Shown here: one piece after another, positions 3,233 to 61,041 of the stretch
Layout of the letters: every line of letters starts with the position of its first letter
Position numbering within the stretch: position 1 is the stretch's first letter
Assembly (NCBI GenBank): GCA_023476565.1
Contig: JAMCVZ010000053.1
Span: forward strand, 1 to 64,000
From: Nitrospirota bacterium
Lineage (GTDB): Bacteria; Nitrospirota; Thermodesulfovibrionia; Thermodesulfovibrionales; Dissulfurispiraceae
Direction: 5' to 3'
Length of the DNA stretch: 64,000 bases
The notes under the pieces: generated by a model
The model's database searches: none
Told to the model about the DNA's origin: nothing
Seen by the model: the letters and a program-made list of their open reading frames with translations, nothing else
Made by a program: the position numbers and the translations under genes

Positions 3233-4759
3233 TCATTCTGACCTCCTCTTCTGATTACCTTCCAGTATATATCTCAAAAAAAGCGCCCGTGAAGCGGCAT
3301 ATCTTCCCATCTCGTTATCAGGAGCTACCTTAAGCTGTCTTATGTATTCGTTGTATGCTGAATAGGCATCATGCATCTGCTCATAAGACATCCCCAGCAC
3401 AGCGTGTATCTCGGGGTGCTGCGGCTGCGCTTCCGCGAACGGCTTCAAATACCGGACTGCCTGACTGTAGTCCCCTGTCTTGAAATAACTCATACCCAGG
3501 AAATAATGAGAGAGCACATCCTGCGGAAAAAGCGTGAGGCTGTGCTTCAGGATCCTTATGCTTTCGTTATAGTCCCCTCTCGAATACCGGACAGCTCCCA
3601 ATCCCCGCAATGAAGGCTCATAGGCGCCATCGAGGTTGAGCGCACGGTTAAAGTTACTTTCAGCCCCGGAGTAGTCCTTCTTCTTCAGCAGTATAAAGCC
3701 TTTCAGGGCATAAAAGGGGGGCTGGTCCTGGTTCACGCTTATGGCCTTGGATACGAGGGAGTCGGCCTCTTCGAGATTGTTCTTTTGAAACGCCTGCGCC
3801 GCTTTATCAAAATAACCGGAATAGACCTCGTTGACCTTCTTCAGCCCTGCAATCATGTCCTGGAACCGTTCTCTGTACTTCCCGTCACCCGACACCGGAG
3901 CGGGCGGTGTATTTCTGATTATATGCTCAATCTCCCCGATCCTCACCGATGTCCTGGGATGGGTCGAAAGCAAATCCTCAAAAAGACTCTTTTCATGCGG
4001 GTCCTTGCCCAGCGATTTAAGATATTCCTGCGAGACCCGTTCAAGGTTCCTGTGAGCGCTGACGGCATTCCACGGATCGTACCCGAGCCTTGTCATATAG
4101 AGAACCCCAAGCCTGTCCGCTTCAAGCTCATGGGTCCTGCTGTATTTCAGGAGCACAAGGCTGCCCCCGATTGAACCGAGATTGAGCGCCGCGTCTGAAT
4201 AACTTTTACCGCCGAGGCCGACACCAAGACCTGCCAATCCCACCTGCATCAGCATGGACGAAGTCATCTGCTCAGCAGAATGCCGCGCTGATACATGCCC
4301 CATCTCATGTCCCATAACAAAGGCGAATTCGGCCTCGCTGTCAAGCGCTGCAAGCAATCCCCGCGTGATGACGACATAGCCGGGTATTGCCCATGCATTG
4401 GGAGTCGAGCTGTTCTGGATCGCGAAAGACACGGGAAGGTTGGGCCTGTGGGACACGCCGTGTATCCTGAAAATGATATCTCTTAAATAAGACCTCAGCC
4501 TCTCGTCCCTATACTCACCGCCGCCGCCCTCCGCGCCCCAGAGGGCATTAGGATAAAGCTCCTTCCCCAGCGCCACTTCCTGCGCCTCGGATACGAGCAT
4601 TAACTCCCTCTGCCCGGTTACCGGGTTTATGGCGCAACCCGAAAGCAGCAACGAGTAACAAGCAACGAGCAAACCTGAAAACAGCGACAAGCAACGAGTT
4701 AAAAGTAACGGGTTAAAAACAAAATATTTATTGCGAAAAAAGGAGCTCTTGTCTTTCAT
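3233..4759 (-). CDS. M48-family metalloprotease lipoprotein with TPR repeats (BepA-like)
   Basis: Predicted periplasmic, lipid-anchored zinc protease of outer-membrane quality control. A lipobox LLSGC lies near residue 42. The zinc motif HEMGH is near 151-155 and the third ligand is in HELEADRLG. TPR-like helices follow from about 320 to 490, as in E. coli BepA/YfgC. The ATG at 4759 (MKDKSSFF) with AGG upstream is preferred; an upstream GTG at 4789 would overlap nagA. The hydrophobic core of the signal peptide (NPLLLTRCLSLFSGLL) is encoded by a repeat element also found in nagA and in the lipid kinase gene at 16.5 kb, read there on the opposite strand. Confidence 0.88.
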   Translation of the reverse strand: MKDKSSFFRNKYFVFNPLLLTRCLSLFSGLLVACYSLLLSGCAINPVTGQRELMLVSEAQEVALGKELYPNALWGAEGGGGEYRDERLRSYLRDIIFRIHGVSHRPNLPVSFAIQNSSTPNAWAIPGYVVITRGLLAALDSEAEFAFVMGHEMGHVSARHSAEQMTSSMLMQVGLAGLGVGLGGKSYSDAALNLGSIGGSLVLLKYSRTHELEADRLGVLYMTRLGYDPWNAVSAHRNLERVSQEYLKSLGKDPHEKSLFEDLLSTHPRTSVRIGEIEHIIRNTPPAPVSGDGKYRERFQDMIAGLKKVNEVYSGYFDKAAQAFQKNNLEEADSLVSKAISVNQDQPPFYALKGFILLKKKDYSGAESNFNRALNLDGAYEPSLRGLGAVRYSRGDYNESIRILKHSLTLFPQDVLSHYFLGMSYFKTGDYSQAVRYLKPFAEAQPQHPEIHAVLGMSYEQMHDAYSAYNEYIRQLKVAPDNEMGRYAASRALFLRYILEGNQKRRSE

Positions 4760-4800
4760 ATTTTTACCTGTCATGTTTTTACTTGTCACTCGTTACTGCT
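4644..4800. repeat. GTAACGAG-word inverted repeat, copy spanning the M48 gene start and nagA end
   Basis: On the plus strand the left arm is tandem variants of the word, including AACGAGTAACAAGCAACGAG and GACAAGCAACGAGTTAAAAG. The right arm at 4781-4798 carries ACTCGTTACTG. It encodes the signal peptide of the M48 protease and the last residues of the NagA-like protein. The stretch GACAAGC.ACGAGTTA..AGTAACGGGTTAAAA closely matches the copy at 16524-16618. Confidence 0.75.
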
Positions 4801-5717
4801 TCCATGTATCTTTCAGGATTCTCCGTAATGCACTTCATTACAACATCCCTGTCAAACCCCGCCTCAATGAGCATTACAGAGGCTTCGGAGACCGTCATGC
4901 TGCCTCCCAGGAGACTTCCGTGGATATCGGTTACGCCCTGTCCCTTTGTAAACGGCGTTGTTTCCTTCACGGTATCGGAAATGATAATAATGCGTTCAGC
5001 CTTCTTTGTTTCGAAGATCAGCTCAAGCGTTTTGGGATGCAGGTGATGGGGATCCGCAATAACTTCGATATAGATATCCTTGTTCATAAGCCCGAAGCCC
5101 GCTATGCCGGGCTCCCTGTGGTGGAAACCGCGCATCGCGTTGAAGATATGCGTTATGCCTTTTGCACCTGCATGAAAGCCGGCTTCTGCTTCGGCGTGCG
5201 TTGCGTCCGAATGCCCCATACTGGCGATGATGCCCCTATCGGTTATCTTCCTGATAAGCCCCGGAGCCCCGTTCAGCTCAGGCGCGATGGTGATTATCTT
5301 CACCATATCTTCAAAACCTTCTATAAGCTCTTTCAAGTGGTATTCAGTGGGCTCAAGAAATGTCATCGAGTTCAGGGCGCCGCATTTCGAGAAATTCAGG
5401 AAAGGGCCCTCGAGGTGAACGCCGGCTATAAGTGACGAGTGACGAGTAACGAGTAACGAGTTTTCGGATTCTTTCTTATTCTTTAACTCGTTACTTGTAA
5501 CTTGTAACTTGTTACTGTCTTTCTGGCGTTCCATCGCCTCCCTGACCACTGCCATATTTTCACGCATTACTTTAATGGCAGCAGGATATATGGTGGGGAT
5601 TATTTCCGAAACGCCCTGAGAGCCGTGTATTTCGGCAATCCTGAGTATATGCACGGCATCTGTAGTCCGCGTATCATAGCCGGCAATGCCGTGGGTATGG
5701 ATGTCGATCACCCTCAT
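4779..5717 (-). CDS. nagA: N-acetylglucosamine-6-phosphate deacetylase (NagA-like, short form)
   Basis: Amidohydrolase-family TIM barrel expected to deacetylate GlcNAc-6-phosphate in amino sugar and cell-wall recycling. Motifs are IDIHTHG at the N-terminus, GVHLEGPFLN near 99-108, GHSDATHAEAEAG, THIFNAM and the catalytic-Asp region IIISDTVKE. At 312 aa it is shorter than the usual 380 or so: it begins directly at the barrel HTHG strand and lacks most of the small beta domain. Residues about 66-96 are an insertion (DSNKLQVTSNELKNKK and following) encoded by a repeat element lying between a helix and the HLEGPF strand. Activity is therefore less certain than the family assignment. Neighbouring AmpG and NagZ support a recycling role. 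Confidence 0.85.
   Translation of the reverse strand: MRVIDIHTHGIAGYDTRTTDAVHILRIAEIHGSQGVSEIIPTIYPAAIKVMRENMAVVREAMERQKDSNKLQVTSNELKNKKESENSLLVTRHSSLIAGVHLEGPFLNFSKCGALNSMTFLEPTEYHLKELIEGFEDMVKIITIAPELNGAPGLIRKITDRGIIASMGHSDATHAEAEAGFHAGAKGITHIFNAMRGFHHREPGIAGFGLMNKDIYIEVIADPHHLHPKTLELIFETKKAERIIIISDTVKETTPFTKGQGVTDIHGSLLGGSMTVSEASVMLIEAGFDRDVVMKCITENPERYMEAVTSDK
5431..5518. repeat. GTAACGAG-word inverted repeat inserted in frame in nagA
   Basis: The left arm is four tandem heptamers of the GTGACGA/GTAACGA type, the spacer is about 26 bp, and the right arm is the inverted heptamer series CTCGTTACTTGTAACTTG. The whole 88 bp is read through in the nagA frame. The encoded peptide closely resembles the one produced by the copy at 16524-16618. 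Confidence 0.85.
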
Positions 5718-5773
5718 GGATGTATGATAACACAGAGAATAAGCGTGAAAAAACGCCTCATATCGTGCGTGCA

Positions 5774-5822
5774 GGGAACAGTCCCTATTCTACGACTCCG
5801 TCCGTAAATAGGGACAGTCCCC
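5774..5822 (+). repeat. GGGACAGTCCC-ended palindromic repeat, copy 2 (short form)
   Basis: Short form of the family, with centre CTACGACTCCGTCCGTAAAT. It lies between the divergent starts of nagA and the DUF1460 gene. It keeps an open frame upstream of the DUF1460 start, so an automatic caller may extend that gene through it. Confidence 0.9.
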
Positions 5823-5872
5823 TGGGTTATGCTCAATTTGCCATAGCCGGCTCTAAAAGGGTATCGTATTTT

Positions 5873-7860: not shown

Positions 7861-7878
7861 AATATCCTTTTACGTGCA

Positions 7879-7979
7879 GGGGACAGTCCCTATTCTACGA
7901 CTCCGTCCGTAAATAGGGACAGTCCCCTCGACTCCGTCCGTGGTAAACCACCTACTGTTGGTAAATAGGGACAGTCCCC
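7879..7979 (+). repeat. GGGACAGTCCC-ended palindromic repeat, copy 3 (composite)
   Basis: A short form (7879-7927) is joined directly to a second centre plus right end containing the extra hairpin GTGGTAAACCACC, giving three end sequences in one block. It looks like a partial tandem duplication between a short and a long form. It separates ampG from the 80-codon gene. Confidence 0.88.
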
Positions 7980-7987
7980 TTGGTTCT

Positions 7988-11778: not shown

Positions 11779-11798
11779 CTTAAAACAGTAACGAGTTA

Positions 11799-12272
11799 CT
11801 ATCCTTTCGTGAGCGTGCTCTTGAATGCGTTCAGCCACATGATGTGGCTCTTTTCCTCGTTGATGACCTCGTCGACGACATCCTTTTCCTTTACGGCATC
11901 CCTGACACCGTAAAAATAAAGGAGGGTCTCCTTCTCAAATCCAAGCGCATAATTCACCGCATCCGCTGCGGTCTTTATCCCATCCATGGACGGAAGGGAC
12001 TTATTCTTGCCCAGGAAAAATTCCGACTCGACGATGGCCCTCAGGTATTGGGCTATCTCCTCCCATCCGGCAGGCTCGCTGTCGACGATCATATCTTTCA
12101 ATTCAGAGTATGTCTTTTCATGTCTCAATTCCTTTTCGGCAAGTGTGGTGAACAGCTTTGCAAGCCTTTCTTCTTTCCTGAACCTGCCGGCCATAGAGGT
12201 ATAGAACTGGTACCCCAGCCTTTCCGTCTGAACGGCCTGTTCAAGCACCTCTCTGATCGTGAATTTCTCCAT
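11799..12272 (-). CDS. Ferritin-like/rubrerythrin-fold protein
   Basis: A 157 aa four-helix-bundle diiron protein, probably in peroxide or iron handling. Metal-ligand patterns are visible: EQAVQTERLGYQFY, LAEKELRHEKTY, YALGFEKETLLYFY and VINEEKSHIMWL, i.e. two ExxxxxY and two ExxH-type helices. It lacks the C-terminal rubredoxin domain of classic rubrerythrin. The ATG at 12272 has AGGAGG at ideal spacing. The short upstream extension of the frame (MTPALSRGGI) is not needed. Confidence 0.85.
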   Translation of the reverse strand: MEKFTIREVLEQAVQTERLGYQFYTSMAGRFRKEERLAKLFTTLAEKELRHEKTYSELKDMIVDSEPAGWEEIAQYLRAIVESEFFLGKNKSLPSMDGIKTAADAVNYALGFEKETLLYFYGVRDAVKEKDVVDEVINEEKSHIMWLNAFKSTLTKG

Positions 12273-12699: not shown

Positions 12700-14450
12700 C
12701 ACCAGCTTCTATACCTGTTCGTTATCGGAAATCTCCTGTCCCTGCCGAACGCACGGGGTGTTATCTTGATTCCCGGAGGTGATTGTCTTCTCTTATATTC
12801 ACTGTGGTCTACCATGTTGATGATGCTCTTCGCGCGGGCCTCATCGCAGCCGAGGCCGATAATCTCATCAAAGCCCTTGTCATCCTCAATATATGCCCTG
12901 AGAATAGGATCAAGGACATCATAGGGCGGCAAGGTATCCGTGTCCTTCTGGTTGGGCCTCAATTCCGCTGTCGGCTCTTTGGATAATATCCTTTCCGGGA
13001 TAACTGTCCTGCCTTCCATCCTGTTTTTCCAGCGGCATATTCTATACACAAGCGTTTTAGGCACGTCCTTTATGACCGCGAACCCTCCGGCCATATCGCC
13101 GTAAAGCGTTGCATAGCCCACGCTCATTTCCGATTTATTGCCCGTTGTCAGGACAAGCCACCCGAACTTATTGGACAGGGCCATAAGGATGTTCCCCCTG
13201 ATGCGCGCCTGTATATTTTCCTCGGTAATATCCGGAGGCATATTCTCAAAATTCGGTTCCAGCGTTTTCAGATATCCCTCAAAAATAGTGCTTATAGGCG
13301 ACTCGAGCACTTTTATCCCGAGGGTTTCCGAAAGCGCCTGCACATCTTCCCTGCTCTCCGCCGACGTATAAGGGGAAGGCATAAAAACACCCGTAACATT
13401 CTCTTTTCCTATGGCATCAACGGCAACGGCAGCAACAAGCGCCGAATCCACTCCCCCGCTCAGGCCGATACAGACCTTTTTGAAACCGTTCTTCCCGACA
13501 TAGTCCCTTGTTCCAAGAGAAAGGGCCTTGTAGGCCTCCTCCTCTATGGGAAAAACAGGACAGCCGGCAGGCGCGGGAGCGCCGAATCGGGGGAAGGACG
13601 TCCGCGACTCAGGACTGCCCGGCTCCCGGGCAAGGGCTATTTCCTCCACCAGCTCTCTTCTTAAACTCATCGCCTGCTGTCTCCTCCGCGGATTGTGCAG
13701 CCTCTTCATAAATACCGCTTCGAGGTCCAGATCGACTATGACCATATCTTCTTCAAATGCCTTTCCCCTGGCAATGATATCGCCGTTGTGGTCCAGCACA
13801 AGGCTTTGCCCGTCGAAAACAAGCTCGTCCTGGCCCCCCACGGTATTCACGTATGCAATAATAACGCTGTTGTCATTTGCCCTTGTGGAGATCATTCTCT
13901 CCCTGAACCCTGACTTGCCGATGTTGTACGGAGAGGCGTTTATATTGATGATGAATTCCGCGCCTGCCAATGCCTGCACCGTGCCCGGCCCCTCCGGATA
14001 CCAGATGTCCTCGCAGATGCTGACCCCGAACAGGACGTCATCCATCCGGTAGACGGGATAGCGCATCCCTGCCTGAAAGTACCTGAATTCGTCAAAGACT
14101 CCATAATTGGGCAAGTGCATCTTATGGTAAATATCAACGATTTCACCCTTATGGATTATCGCCGCGGCATTATATATATCATCCCTTCTATCTACGAAAC
14201 CGGTTATTACCACACAATCGCCCGCAGCTTCCTGAATTTCTCCCAGGGCGCTTATGTTGTCCCTTATGAATTGGGGCTTCAGGAGGAGGTCTTCAGGGGG
14301 ATAGCCTGTAACGGCAAGTTCCGGAAAGGCCACTATATCGGGATTGTAAGCGCCGGCGTCTTCGATGCACTTGATTATCCTTCGGGCATTGCCGTTAAGA
14401 TCGCCGACGGTCGTGTTGATCTGGCACAGAGCCAGCCGTATTGTTTTCAT
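12699..14450 (-). CDS. nadE: Glutamine-hydrolysing NAD+ synthetase
   Basis: Converts deamido-NAD to NAD using glutamine-derived ammonia. The N-terminal nitrilase-type glutaminase domain shows the Glu-Lys-Cys triad in [28 protein letters not shown] and [11 protein letters not shown]. The C-terminal synthetase domain has the P-loop [19 protein letters not shown] near 330-348 and [19 protein letters not shown]. The 583 aa length matches bacterial two-domain enzymes. The ATG has AGGAG upstream. Confidence 0.96.
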
Positions 14451-16003: not shown

Positions 16004-16070
16004 AATTCAGATTCCAAATTGCAAAACAGGTCTATCCCTTCAGTTGTTATTTGGAATTTGGGACTCGGAG
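16004..16070. repeat. AT-rich inverted repeat (CCAAATTGC words)
   Basis: GATTCCAAATTGCAAAA and TTATTTGGAATTTGGG face each other across about 30 bp between bioW and the lipid kinase gene. It resembles the TTTTGCA/AATTGC word elements near 1046 and 45160. Confidence 0.45.
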
Positions 16071-16115
16071 TTTATAGTTCTTGCATACAGGCAAGGACTT
16101 CGTGAGGAGCGTGGT

Positions 16116-17177
16116 TTGAAAAACATTGTTCTAATAGGCAATCCCGCGGCAGGCGGCGGGGCGCTTAAAAAAATAGAAAAGGCGGCAAGTATCATCAGGG
16201 ACAAGGGCTTCGATGTCCGGGTTCTGCTCACCGGCAAGAGGGGTGATGCCGAATCCTTTGCCAGGGAGATCGCATCTAATTCCCCCACCTTTAAAAAAGC
16301 GGGGCAGGGGGGGATTCTGGTTATGGCCGCAGGCGGCGACGGCACCTATAATGAGGTGGCTAACGGCCTGATCCATTCGGATGTGCCCATGGCCGTACTG
16401 CCGTTAGGTACCTCTTCTGTACTCGCAAAAGAACTGCGCCTACCCGGAGATATAGATAAAGCTGTGCATATTGCTTTGAACGGCTGCATACAAACTGTGC
16501 ACGTTGGGAAAATAACATTAAAAGACAGTGACAAGCTACGAGTTACGAGTAACGGGTTAAAAGATAAAAAAGACACAGAAGATTTGTCGCCCGTTACCGA
16601 GAATGTTACCCGTTACTTCCTCCTGATGGCAGGCATCGGCTTTGATGCCGAGACCGTTTTCGGTATTAGCGAGAGAATAAAAAAATATACCGGGAAGGCG
16701 GCTTATATACTAAGCGGCATTGAAACAGTCATGAAGTATAATCCTTCACCGCTAACGATAAAAGGATACGGATCACCGGTCGCAAATCATGAGAGCAAGG
16801 GTTCCGGCCCCCTTGCCTTCCGTCCCTCATCTATTGTCCTGACCGGATATACCGCTATTATCGGCAAGGCATCATGTTATGGCGGCAATTTCAAAATCAC
16901 GCCTGATGCCAGTTTGACGGACCCCCATTTTTATGTCTTTGTAACGCACAAAAAGAGCAGATCGTCCCTCATCAAATATGTAGCGGGAATAGTAAAAGGA
17001 TTTCACCTTGGCTTTAAAGATATAAGTTATTTCAGGGCAGCGGAGATTGAAGTGGAAGGGAACGCGCCTATACAGATCGACGGCGATTATGCAGGCGCTG
17101 CTCCGGCCAAAATCGAGATCGCACGGGATGCGCTGAAAATAGTAACCGCCAAAGACCCCTGTATTCAGCAGCTCTGA
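16116..17177 (+). CDS. Diacylglycerol/lipid kinase family protein (YegS/BmrU type)
   Basis: Soluble or membrane-associated kinase of the DAGK catalytic family, phosphorylating a lipid alcohol with ATP. It shows IGNPAAGGGAL at the N-terminus, the nucleotide motif AAGGDGTYNEVANGL near residue 70, and MAVLPLGTSSVLAKEL. FLLMAGIGFDAETVF and IQIDGDYAG follow. TTG at 16116 is chosen because GAGGAG lies six bases upstream; it gives 353 aa. Residues about 137-167 are an insertion beginning DSDKLRVTSNGLKDKK, encoded by a repeat element and sitting just before the conserved YFLLMAGIGFDA strand. The kinase core appears otherwise intact. Confidence 0.87.
   Translation: MKNIVLIGNPAAGGGALKKIEKAASIIRDKGFDVRVLLTGKRGDAESFAREIASNSPTFKKAGQGGILVMAAGGDGTYNEVANGLIHSDVPMAVLPLGTSSVLAKELRLPGDIDKAVHIALNGCIQTVHVGKITLKDSDKLRVTSNGLKDKKDTEDLSPVTENVTRYFLLMAGIGFDAETVFGISERIKKYTGKAAYILSGIETVMKYNPSPLTIKGYGSPVANHESKGSGPLAFRPSSIVLTGYTAIIGKASCYGGNFKITPDASLTDPHFYVFVTHKKSRSSLIKYVAGIVKGFHLGFKDISYFRAAEIEVEGNAPIQIDGDYAGAAPAKIEIARDALKIVTAKDPCIQQL
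16524..16618. repeat. GTAACGAG-word inverted repeat inserted in frame in the lipid kinase gene
   Basis: The arms are GACAAGCTACGAGTTACGAG and CCCGTTACC...GTTACCCGTTAC, with an A-rich spacer between them. The encoded peptide matches the NagA insertion at most positions: DS[ND]KL[QR]VTSN[EG]LK[ND]KK. It is about 95 bp and a multiple of three as inserted. Confidence 0.85.
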
Positions 17178-21293: not shown

Positions 21294-21311
21294 TTCTATC
21301 CTCCCCTACGC

Positions 21312-21392
21312 GGGGACAGTCCCTATTCTACGACTCCGCTTCTGCTTCGTCCGTGGTAAACCACCTACTGTTGGTAAATAGGGACAGTCCCC
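21312..21392 (+). repeat. GGGACAGTCCC-ended palindromic repeat, copy 4 (long form)
   Basis: An 81-bp copy with the additional internal hairpin GTGGTAAACCACC and ACTGTTGGTAAAT before the right end. It lies in the 5' region of porC, downstream of the Crp-family gene. Confidence 0.92.
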
Positions 21393-21498
21393 TGTGTTAT
21401 TTCGTTTATTTCGTTAATGTAAAAGGTAACACTGAATCCACTTAGGATAACTAAAGTTTCCATTGTTTTTCAACAAACCAATGTGTCAATTAGTAAAA

Positions 21499-22200: not shown

Positions 22201-22290
22201 CTCAAAATTGGTTTAATAGTATCAGCATACCATGGCCGGTATATATACAGTAAAGGCCCTCTTGACACTTGCTCCATCCCCACTTGCTCA

Positions 22291-22371
22291 GGGGACAGTC
22301 CCTATTCTACGACTTCGCTGCTGCTTCGTCCGTGGTAAACCACCTACTGTTGGTAAATAGGGACAGTCCCC
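22291..22371 (+). repeat. GGGACAGTCCC-ended palindromic repeat, copy 5 (long form)
   Basis: Nearly identical to copy 4 and in the same orientation, so the two long forms flank the Crp-family gene as direct repeats. It sits between the starts/ends of the Crp-family gene and the REC-PAS-kinase gene. Confidence 0.92.
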
Positions 22372-22384
22372 TGAGTCCCCTGTG

Positions 22385-40070: not shown

Positions 40071-41691
40071 TCACTGCCTCCATAGGGACACCGGGGACAG
40101 TCCCTATTCTACGACTCCGCTTCGCTTCGTCCGTAAATAGGGACAGTCCCCGGCGCGTGTCCCCGGCGCGAGATAAACGTGGTTTTGCAATTTCAATTAT
40201 GTCCACACTCCTTTGCAGATTCCCCAGCGCCTGACCGGCCTTGTTGAAAACCGGCTGAGGATAGAGCCCCAGCCATACGATAACGATGATCATCGCCGCC
40301 ATGATGATCATCTCCCGCCCCCTGAAATCAGGCATGCGCCAGTTGAATGTATTCGGGCCGTGAAAAACACGCTGGATAATCCATAATGCATAGACCGTCG
40401 CCGCAATAAGGCCTACCGCCGCCACCGATGCAGCAGCGATATTCACCCTGAAAGAGCCCAGCAGAACGAGGAATTCTCCTATGAAGTTCCCCAGTCCCGG
40501 CAATCCGAGCGAGGCAAGGGCGAAGAAGAGCGCGACCCCGCCTATCCTCGGAGCCGTTGCCCACAGCCCCCCCATGCGGCCCATTTCACGGGTATGGATG
40601 CGTTCCTGGAGCGCGCCCACCAGTATGAAAAGCGCTCCTGTGGCGACCCCGTGGCAGATTATCTGCATCACCGCACCCTGGAGCGCAGTCTCGTTCCAGG
40701 CAAATATGCCGAGGAGCACAAATCCCATATGGCTGATGCTTGTATACGCTACAAGCCGTTTGAGATCGGTCTGGGCAAAGGCAAGCACAGCTCCGTACAG
40801 TATCCCTATGACAGCCAGCACAAAAGCGATTGGAGCGAACTCAAAAGCCGCGCGGGGGAACAGCGGGATCGTAAAACGCAGCAGGCCGTAAGCCCCTGTT
40901 TTAAGCAGGAGCCCTGCAAGGATTACGCTGCCCGCGGTAGGCGCTTCGGTGTGGGCCTCGGGCAGCCATGTGTGCACCGGCACTACCGGCAGCTTGACGG
41001 CAAAGGCAATGAGGAAGCCCAGCATAAGCCAAAACTCGGTTGCCGGCTGCATGTACGTGCCGAGCAGTTGCAGGTAATCGAACGTATAGACGCCTGTGTT
41101 CCGCGCGTGAATAAAGTACAACCCCAGGATCGCTATCAGCAGCAGCAGGCCGCTGACCTGGGTGAATATGAAAAACTTTACGGCGGCATAGAAGCGGTTC
41201 TCATGTCCCCAGAGCGCAATGAGAAAATACATGGGGATCAGCATCAGCTCCCAGAAAAAGTAGAAGATGAAGAGATCCATGGCCAGGAATACTCCAATGA
41301 TGCCCGCCAGGACCCACATCAGGTTCAAATGAAAAAAACCCACCCTGTCCTGTATCTCGGTCCATGAAGATGCAACGGCGGTAATGCCGAGAAAAACGGT
41401 GAGCAGGACAAGCAGGAGGCTCAGCCCGTCCATCGCAAGGTGGAGGCTTATTCCCAGTTGAGGGACCCAGCTCCGGTCCAGCTCCGCCAGCCACATTGTA
41501 CTGCCCTGCACCAGGTTGCCGGCGGGGGGCAGGACTATTCCGGGCTTGAACCATAAGGCAAGCAGCAATGCAAAATCGAAAGTGAGGGCGATCAACGAAA
41601 TCCATCGCGGCAGCGCCGTATTCAGACGGTCGGAGTACCACGCGATAATGCCGCCCAGAAAGGGTATTATGATAAGCCAGATCAGTATCAT
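40060..41691 (-). CDS. nuoM: NADH-quinone oxidoreductase subunit M
   Basis: Antiporter-like proton-pumping subunit. The conserved Glu lies in WELMLIPMYFLIALWGHENR, and FAVKLPVVPVHTWLPEAHTE, AQTDLKRLVAYTSISHMGF and LPGLGNFIGEFL are typical. ATG 41691 overlaps the nuoL stop by four bases and gives 543 aa, about 30 longer than E. coli NuoM. The last 25 or so residues (SLFTDEAKRSRRIGTVPG and flanks) are encoded by a palindromic repeat inserted at the nuoM/nuoN junction. Confidence 0.95.
   Translation of the reverse strand: MILIWLIIIPFLGGIIAWYSDRLNTALPRWISLIALTFDFALLLALWFKPGIVLPPAGNLVQGSTMWLAELDRSWVPQLGISLHLAMDGLSLLLVLLTVFLGITAVASSWTEIQDRVGFFHLNLMWVLAGIIGVFLAMDLFIFYFFWELMLIPMYFLIALWGHENRFYAAVKFFIFTQVSGLLLLIAILGLYFIHARNTGVYTFDYLQLLGTYMQPATEFWLMLGFLIAFAVKLPVVPVHTWLPEAHTEAPTAGSVILAGLLLKTGAYGLLRFTIPLFPRAAFEFAPIAFVLAVIGILYGAVLAFAQTDLKRLVAYTSISHMGFVLLGIFAWNETALQGAVMQIICHGVATGALFILVGALQERIHTREMGRMGGLWATAPRIGGVALFFALASLGLPGLGNFIGEFLVLLGSFRVNIAAASVAAVGLIAATVYALWIIQRVFHGPNTFNWRMPDFRGREMIIMAAMIIVIVWLGLYPQPVFNKAGQALGNLQRSVDIIEIAKPRLSRAGDTRRGLSLFTDEAKRSRRIGTVPGVPMEAVNGR
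40093..40151 (+). repeat. GGGACAGTCCC-ended palindromic repeat, copy 6 (inside nuoM 3' end)
   Basis: Intermediate-length copy with centre CTACGACTCCGCTTCGCTTCGTCCGTAAAT. It is read through in the nuoM frame and supplies its C-terminal tail, ending just before the nuoN start. An extra GTGTCCCCGG stutter follows the right end. Confidence 0.92.
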
Positions 41692-44504: not shown

Positions 44505-44606
44505 CTCAATCGTAACGCGTGACCTAAAGACCGTGACCCGTGATCCGTGATGAGCCGGGAATTGTGTCGGTTTTTATCTGATCACGGATCACGGGTCACG
44601 GCATTA
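44505..44606. repeat. Word-type inverted repeat (CGTGACC/CGTGATC words)
   Basis: Left arm GACCGTGACCCGTGATCCGT and right arm ATCACGGATCACGGGTCACG are nearly perfect inverted copies of about 20 bp around a 33-bp spacer. It lies between nuoI and nuoJ and reaches into the last two codons of nuoI. Confidence 0.8.
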
Positions 44607-59338: not shown

Positions 59339-59416
59339 TGGTCGGGGCGATCCGATTCGAACGGACGACCTCTCGCACCCCAAGCGAGTGCGCTATCCAG
59401 GCTGCGCTACGCCCCG
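59339..59416 (-). tRNA. tRNA-Pro (anticodon GGG)
   Basis: A full cloverleaf: 7-bp acceptor stem CGGGGCG/CGCCCCG, anticodon stem CTCGC/GCGAG with loop TTGGGGT (anticodon GGG), T-arm with GTTCGAATC, discriminator A and an encoded CCA. Its 5' half is duplicated at 60995-61041, marking an integration site. Confidence 0.95.
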
Positions 59417-60994: not shown

Positions 60995-61041
60995 TCGCAC
61001 CCCAAGCGAGTGCGCTATCCAGGCTGCGCTACGCCCCGAAA
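60995..61041. other. Second attachment site: orphan 5' half of tRNA-Pro
   Basis: Exact 47-bp copy of 59373-59419. It lacks the variable loop, T-arm and 3' acceptor strand, so it cannot make a tRNA. It overlaps the last codons of merR (HHFGA then stop), where the integrase fragment at the other end reads SSFGA then stop. Confidence 0.85.

Follow-up and report, generated by a model that had tools for sequence, protein, structure and literature searches.

A dispersed palindromic repeat with heptamer-built arms lies in frame in unrelated enzyme genes of a Nitrospirota bacterium

Palindromic inserts that lie in frame within genes are a notable oddity of Rickettsia. As summarized in PMC3733652 (citing Ogata 2002), the Rickettsia palindromic elements (RPE) are short palindromic repeats found both between genes and in frame in unrelated functional genes. 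REP/RAYT repeats (GTAG and CGTC REPs) are likewise palindromes, sometimes located inside repair and tRNA synthetase genes (PMC3733652). Heptanucleotide repeats are a further point of reference. Geobacter metallireducens has GGACCGG elements of four units, in 49 copies between and within genes (PMC2700814). TAACTGA repeats of Beggiatoaceae include a few cases in open reading frames, one of them in a surface loop of RNA polymerase (PMC4679880), and GGGNATC heptamers, with a preference for four units, occur in Xanthomonas and Nostoc (PMC4692102).

The element discussed here acts like the RPE, whereas its construction is that of the heptanucleotide repeats known from cyanobacteria, Geobacter, and Xanthomonas. 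The window, i.e., the whole stretch of 64,000 nucleotides that was analysed, belongs to a 2.67 Mb Thermodesulfovibrionales MAG (Nitrospirota) with about 100 copies of the element, and contains the following features:

4678..4801, plus strand: degenerate third copy (32 bits), located in the spacer behind NagA and reaching into the end of that gene
4779..5717, minus strand: first host gene, a NagA-like amidohydrolase (TIGR00221, E 2.4e-51, under the curated cut-off)
5424..5523, minus strand: element copy in the NagA-like gene, the top match of the sequence model (E 1.4e-27)
11780..11805, strand not applicable: candidate remnant made up of one inverted pair of units, CAGTAACGAGTTACT, a short way upstream of an RsmI-like start
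16044..17177, plus strand: second host gene, a lipid kinase (PF00781 and PF19279)
16520..16621, plus strand: element copy in this YegS/DAGK-type lipid kinase gene (E 1.2e-21)
44531..44601, strand not applicable: hairpin between genes, from a sister heptamer family with GTGATCC units; its arms are 96% complementary and its loop is 23 nt long

We infer that 11780..11805 is a remnant of the element and that its neighbour is RsmI-like; the true start of the lipid kinase is probably nearer 16116. The earlier note had proposed that one repeat element sits in frame in two unrelated enzyme genes, at 5431-5518 and 16524-16618. Both inserts are found at these places, although they extend further than was thought (to approximately 5424-5523 and 16520-16621). 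Their proposed homology in DNA and peptide is borne out by 73 ungapped bases shared on the coding strands, with a local score of 39 against a best of 15 in 2000 shuffles; the best match in the window outside the inserts scores 25 and is the third, weaker copy at ~4650-4800. The NagA copy is composed of a left heptamer arm, the AT-rich loop GTTAAAGAATAAGAAAGAATCCGAAAAC, and a right heptamer arm, and its peptide stands in the context ...RQ-KDSNKLQVTSNELKNKKESENSLLVTRHSSL-IAGVHLEGPF. The kinase copy encodes KDSDKLRVTSNGLKDKKDTEDLSPVTENVTRYF, in the protein context ...KITL-KDSDKLRVTSNGLKDKKDTEDLSPVTENVT-RYFLLMAG. In both copies the conserved stretch begins with AAAGACAGTAAC and finishes with GTTACTGTCTT. 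The last NagA residues, EAVTSDK, look element-derived as well.

The element is ~95 bases long and consists of two inverted arms, each with three to five GTNACNN heptamers, flanking a conserved AT-rich loop. Along the element, AAAGACAGTAAC is followed by the GTNACNN heptamers, the loop GTTAAAAGATAAAAAAGAATCCGAAAAC, the complementary heptamers, and ACTGTCTT, and the terminal sequences (GAAGACAG/CTGTCTTC) are conserved. The tandem units are exactly seven bases long, and with its inverted arms, conserved loop, and conserved ends the element as a whole is not a simple direct-repeat array. G and T are nearly invariant in the heptamers of the GTNAC copies, and specific positions vary, mostly purine-purine in the left arm and mostly pyrimidine-pyrimidine in the right arm, in genic and non-genic copies alike. 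The predicted hairpins are stable (mean z of -3.6 for copies in genes and -4.7 for copies outside). Arm-to-arm covariation was absent (19.2 matches for a copy's own arms versus 19.6 for arms of different copies, permutation P 0.96), and RNAalifold did not recover the arm-to-arm stem from the copy alignment. Since own arms pair no better than foreign arms, the hairpin is a legacy of the family and is not kept up separately in each copy. No Rfam family matched at gathering score across the whole window, and a literature search, in which journal coverage was incomplete, found no description of a GTNACNN hairpin element.

A sequence model (R1) built from 20 copies gave 151 raw matches genome-wide, with the palindrome counted on both strands. 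The 757 kb that were read, chosen to include matches and supplemented with sample stretches, hold 104 non-redundant matches (E up to 1e-3). The NagA insert peptide alone matches many other open frames in the source genome and in its genus-mate G001. Copy-to-copy identity is ~92% for the best unlinked pairs, with a median of 73%. Two copies in the AddB-like gene of locus L311 (3022-3106 and 3293-3376) are 96% identical at a distance of 270 bases and look like a local duplication. Among relatives, of which those with names are Thermodesulfovibrionales (phylum Nitrospirota), the element is patchily present in 26 of 60 and missing from many others (G001 has 88 matches, G003 71, G041 50, G043 28, and G017 25); in a phylum-wide sample it occurs in 24 of 148.

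The earlier note had suggested a search for further copies with a count of their frames. A codon model, for which 377 long frames served as training set, was used to call coding frames over 150 bases on either side of each copy. On this basis 34 of the 78 copies with at least 30 bits lie in frame within a gene, a fraction that depends on a model trained largely on genic copies. All 34 are in the sense orientation and in the open frame of the element, and they are spread over 28 genes in the 757 kb read, so that there are at least 28 host genes. The inserts are ~30 amino acids long. The hosts include RecN, SMC, MnmA, alanine racemase (Alr), XerD, an AddB-like protein, YbeY, LeuRS, GlnD, a KdsB-like cytidylyltransferase, QueC, MurE-like, CheA-like, and ComEC-like proteins, a P-type ATPase, two CobB/CobQ-type amidotransferases, a CCA/poly(A)-polymerase-type enzyme, a FolC-like Mur ligase, and a BioD-like protein, where names beyond the family matches are our reading; an acyl-CoA dehydratase activase gene holds four copies. 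Some inserts lie within a domain (MnmA, QueC) and others between domains, as in alanine racemase, where the insert covers residues 231-262, one domain ends at 230, and the next starts at 266. The element also occurs between genes. Its consensus has a single open frame of six, KDSNKLPVTSNELKDKKESENSLLVTRHSLLS. Stop codons alone thus lead one to expect the same peptide in proteins that are unrelated, and the common frame is no sign of functional selection. At L034 ~13580-13677 (G000:C2:73579-73673), a copy directly precedes the TsaD-like ILGIDTSCDD, with an in-frame ATG upstream, and this element may form the TsaD N-terminus.

The inserts had been described as lying just before a conserved core strand, and AlphaFold2 keeps that strand intact in both hosts. 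The NagA model has a mean pLDDT of 89.8, with values below 50 only at residues 71-91 (the insert) and at the last three residues, and the HLEGPF strand is intact at 100-102. The kinase model, based on 13 sequences, has a pLDDT of 77.6; its insert (139-161) is below 50 and lies between the strands 124-135 and 164-168, and some other segments of low pLDDT stem from the thin alignment. Modeling NagA with the loop, as had been proposed, and modeling the kinase both predict a disordered loop on an intact fold.

Orthologues carrying the same residues would have pointed to ancestral protein sequence. Apart from the genus-mate G001 and one other genus, G002, they lack these residues, and the G002 insert is in turn an element copy (E 1.1e-14). 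When 12 host genes were compared with five relatives, the genus-mate carried an insert in the same loop of 11 genes, all but YbeY; its alanine racemase insert belongs to another family. Most insertions are therefore old. In other genera, RecN and XerD have no comparable inserts, and several other hosts carry unrelated repeat-derived peptides in the same loop. Target site duplications and cognate transposase ends would mark a MITE; the orthologous empty sites here are too diverged to place exact junctions.

In named relatives from Nitrospirota and deltaproteobacterial lineages, the NagA loop holds AACTCNN, CAGAAGN, CAGCAGT, GTTCGGA, or GCATCAT arrays, or a CCCCCC...GGGGGG palindrome. A period of 7 is seen in 20 of 68 NagA loops and periods of 4-6 and 8-12 in none. 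Mapped onto a quick tree from which the insert was left out, the loop types, whose labels are approximate, change no fewer than 18 times (the minimum possible is 8), and three of them (AACTCNN, CAGAAGN, and CAGCAGT) occur within one genus, g5. The same loops are repeatedly reoccupied by arrays of different heptamer families. The NagA loops L118, L126, L130, L159, L161, and L183 of other Nitrospirota carry the palindrome CCCCCCTTTAxTAAAGGGGGG (translated as NPPLPPFSKGGRGG), which sometimes adjoins or nests in a heptamer array. In the lipid kinase of G017 (L083), the same loop has an inverted TCATAGC heptamer array and then a GTCACTC array.

In the source genome, period 7 prevails among short repeats: 463 kb contain 58 period-7 arrays and 29 of period 14 (a multiple of 7), compared with 0-8 for periods 4-6 and 8-13 and one in shuffled sequence. 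Dozens of heptamer sequences are present, often as inverted pairs and some of them genic. Period-7 arrays number 28 in 200 kb of G005, none in 100 kb of G044, and one in 100 kb of G035. Other repeats are also present. A second dispersed palindrome (GGGGACAGTCCCTATTCTACGACTCCGTCCG...TAAATAGGGACAGTCCCC), mostly intergenic, is matched in its core 41 times across the 757 kb, lies in the window at 200-255, 5768-5823, 7873-7984, 21311-21397, 22290-22376, and 40092-40151, and has no copy within eight Y1 transposase loci examined. Moreover, the end of tRNA-Pro(GGG) is repeated 1.6 kb away as a perfect 47-bp direct repeat (59339-59416 and 60995-61041), the pattern that attL/attR would give if a small element had integrated there.

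Collectively, these data make it likely that each insert is a copy of a non-coding palindromic repeat dispersed in the genome, and that the surviving copies are in frame and drift with no selection on the peptide that could be detected. The ~100 matches share a non-repetitive loop and ends, which argues for copies of a source and not independent expansions. Copies arose throughout the genome, as the ~100 matches show; in genes, those outside the stop-free frame would have cut the protein short and disappeared; and those in frame and sense, in permissive surface or inter-domain loops, would survive and be translated through their open frame as disordered loops. Over time, the same loops are taken by copies of other heptamer families. 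The copying step would most likely combine transposition-like dispersal of the hairpin with slippage or conversion between heptamer units. A donor element, a transposase, a target duplication, and a very recent copy were looked for and none was found, so that mobility is deduced from dispersal. The contrasting suggestion that replication slippage grows heptamer arrays from native sequence in tolerant loops, with no copying between sites, draws on heptamers being the over-represented long repeat unit in many bacteria, on the idea of slippage by a polymerase footprint (PMC4692102, PMC4679880), and on genus g5, where different heptamers occupy the same loop and several resemble native CAG AAG codons. 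We regard it as unlikely, as the GTNAC copies have ~28 nt of non-repetitive loop and the ends in common at dozens of unrelated sites and inverted arms are not made by slippage alone, but local slippage plausibly accounts for arm length and for the other heptamer families. A related and equally tentative idea, which we would not favour, is that a process stepping in seven bases, due either to a templating enzyme or to some property of a polymerase, time and again writes hairpins of changing heptamers into the same permissive loops across Nitrospirota and deltaproteobacterial lineages; if so, essential enzymes would carry repeatedly renewed, DNA-driven loops.

Spread by host Y1 transposases, as for REP/RAYT, or by a reverse transcriptase is less probable still. 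G000 carries nine Y1 loci and one reverse transcriptase locus, but a copy lies within ~1.5 kb at only one of the eight Y1 loci examined, G003, with 71 matches, lacks a Y1 gene, and G041, G043, and G017 (50, 28, and 25 matches) have no reverse transcriptase. Gene content fails to explain the distribution of the element, and dependence on either enzyme is unsupported, even though absence today is compatible with a driver that was lost. Selection of the peptide as a linker, docking site, or regulatory loop might be expected from the same peptide in many core enzymes and from the conservation of its sites in two species of the genus. However, the single open frame accounts for the shared peptide, the insert is predicted to be disordered, and orthologues lack it or have unrelated sequence. 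Left-arm divergence at the three codon positions is 15, 12, and 18% in genic copies versus 16, 13, and 17% in non-genic ones, with synonymous to nonsynonymous counts of 63:111 versus 61:115. Neither measure gave a signal of selection in 62 copies, a sample of modest power, and as the codon-position pattern is equal inside and outside genes, constraint on the peptide is not detectable; a functional role of this kind is thus very improbable. The peptide similarity and the draft state of the MAG could also suggest an ancestral segment common to unrelated proteins or an assembly artefact. This is scarcely credible, given that independent genomes carry copies in the same genes, that the element is also intergenic, and that the hosts are unrelated folds; the ancestral segment is ruled out by its absence from most orthologues.

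In behaviour, as distinct from sequence, the predicted resemblance to RPE is upheld: a short palindrome is dispersed between genes and in frame in many unrelated functional genes (34 copies in 28 genes). The differences are the arms of tandem heptamers, the free-living Nitrospirota host, and the many heptamer families that reoccupy the same loops. Hence, the design does differ from RPE, as had been noted, but it is not without precedent, as heptanucleotide arrays, also genic, are known from Geobacter metallireducens (PMC2700814) and Beggiatoaceae (PMC4679880). The Geobacter elements share tandem heptamers, about four units, genic and intergenic sites, and sometimes several copies per gene; in the text available they are presented as putative regulatory elements, named for their four tandem heptanucleotides, and no frame, loop, or orthologue analysis appears there. 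The Beggiatoaceae, cyanobacterial, and Xanthomonas repeats have a seven-base unit, stops in one orientation, and a few cases within reading frames, whereas direct repeats predominate among them and most lie between genes or at the ends of genes (PMC4679880, PMC4692102). REPs differ in being 20-40 bp long, tagged with a tetranucleotide, tied to Y1 transposases, and not heptamer-built, and the present element shows no association with a Y1 (RAYT) transposase gene. Within the literature found, three features are new: heptamer arms that are inverted around a family loop, the extent of insertion in core enzymes, and the recurrent reuse of loops by different families.

These findings add a free-living lineage with in-frame palindromic inserts in LeuRS, MurE, MnmA, RecN, and other core enzymes, in which one heptamer family takes the place of another in the same loop between sister genera. 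They amount to a natural experiment that shows where loops accept new sequence, and they reveal a source from which protein sequence arises de novo. The bacterial preference for seven-base repeats, as yet unexplained, can be put to the test in this setting. Essential proteins can thus have their loops rewritten again and again by mobile-like DNA and still remain intact.
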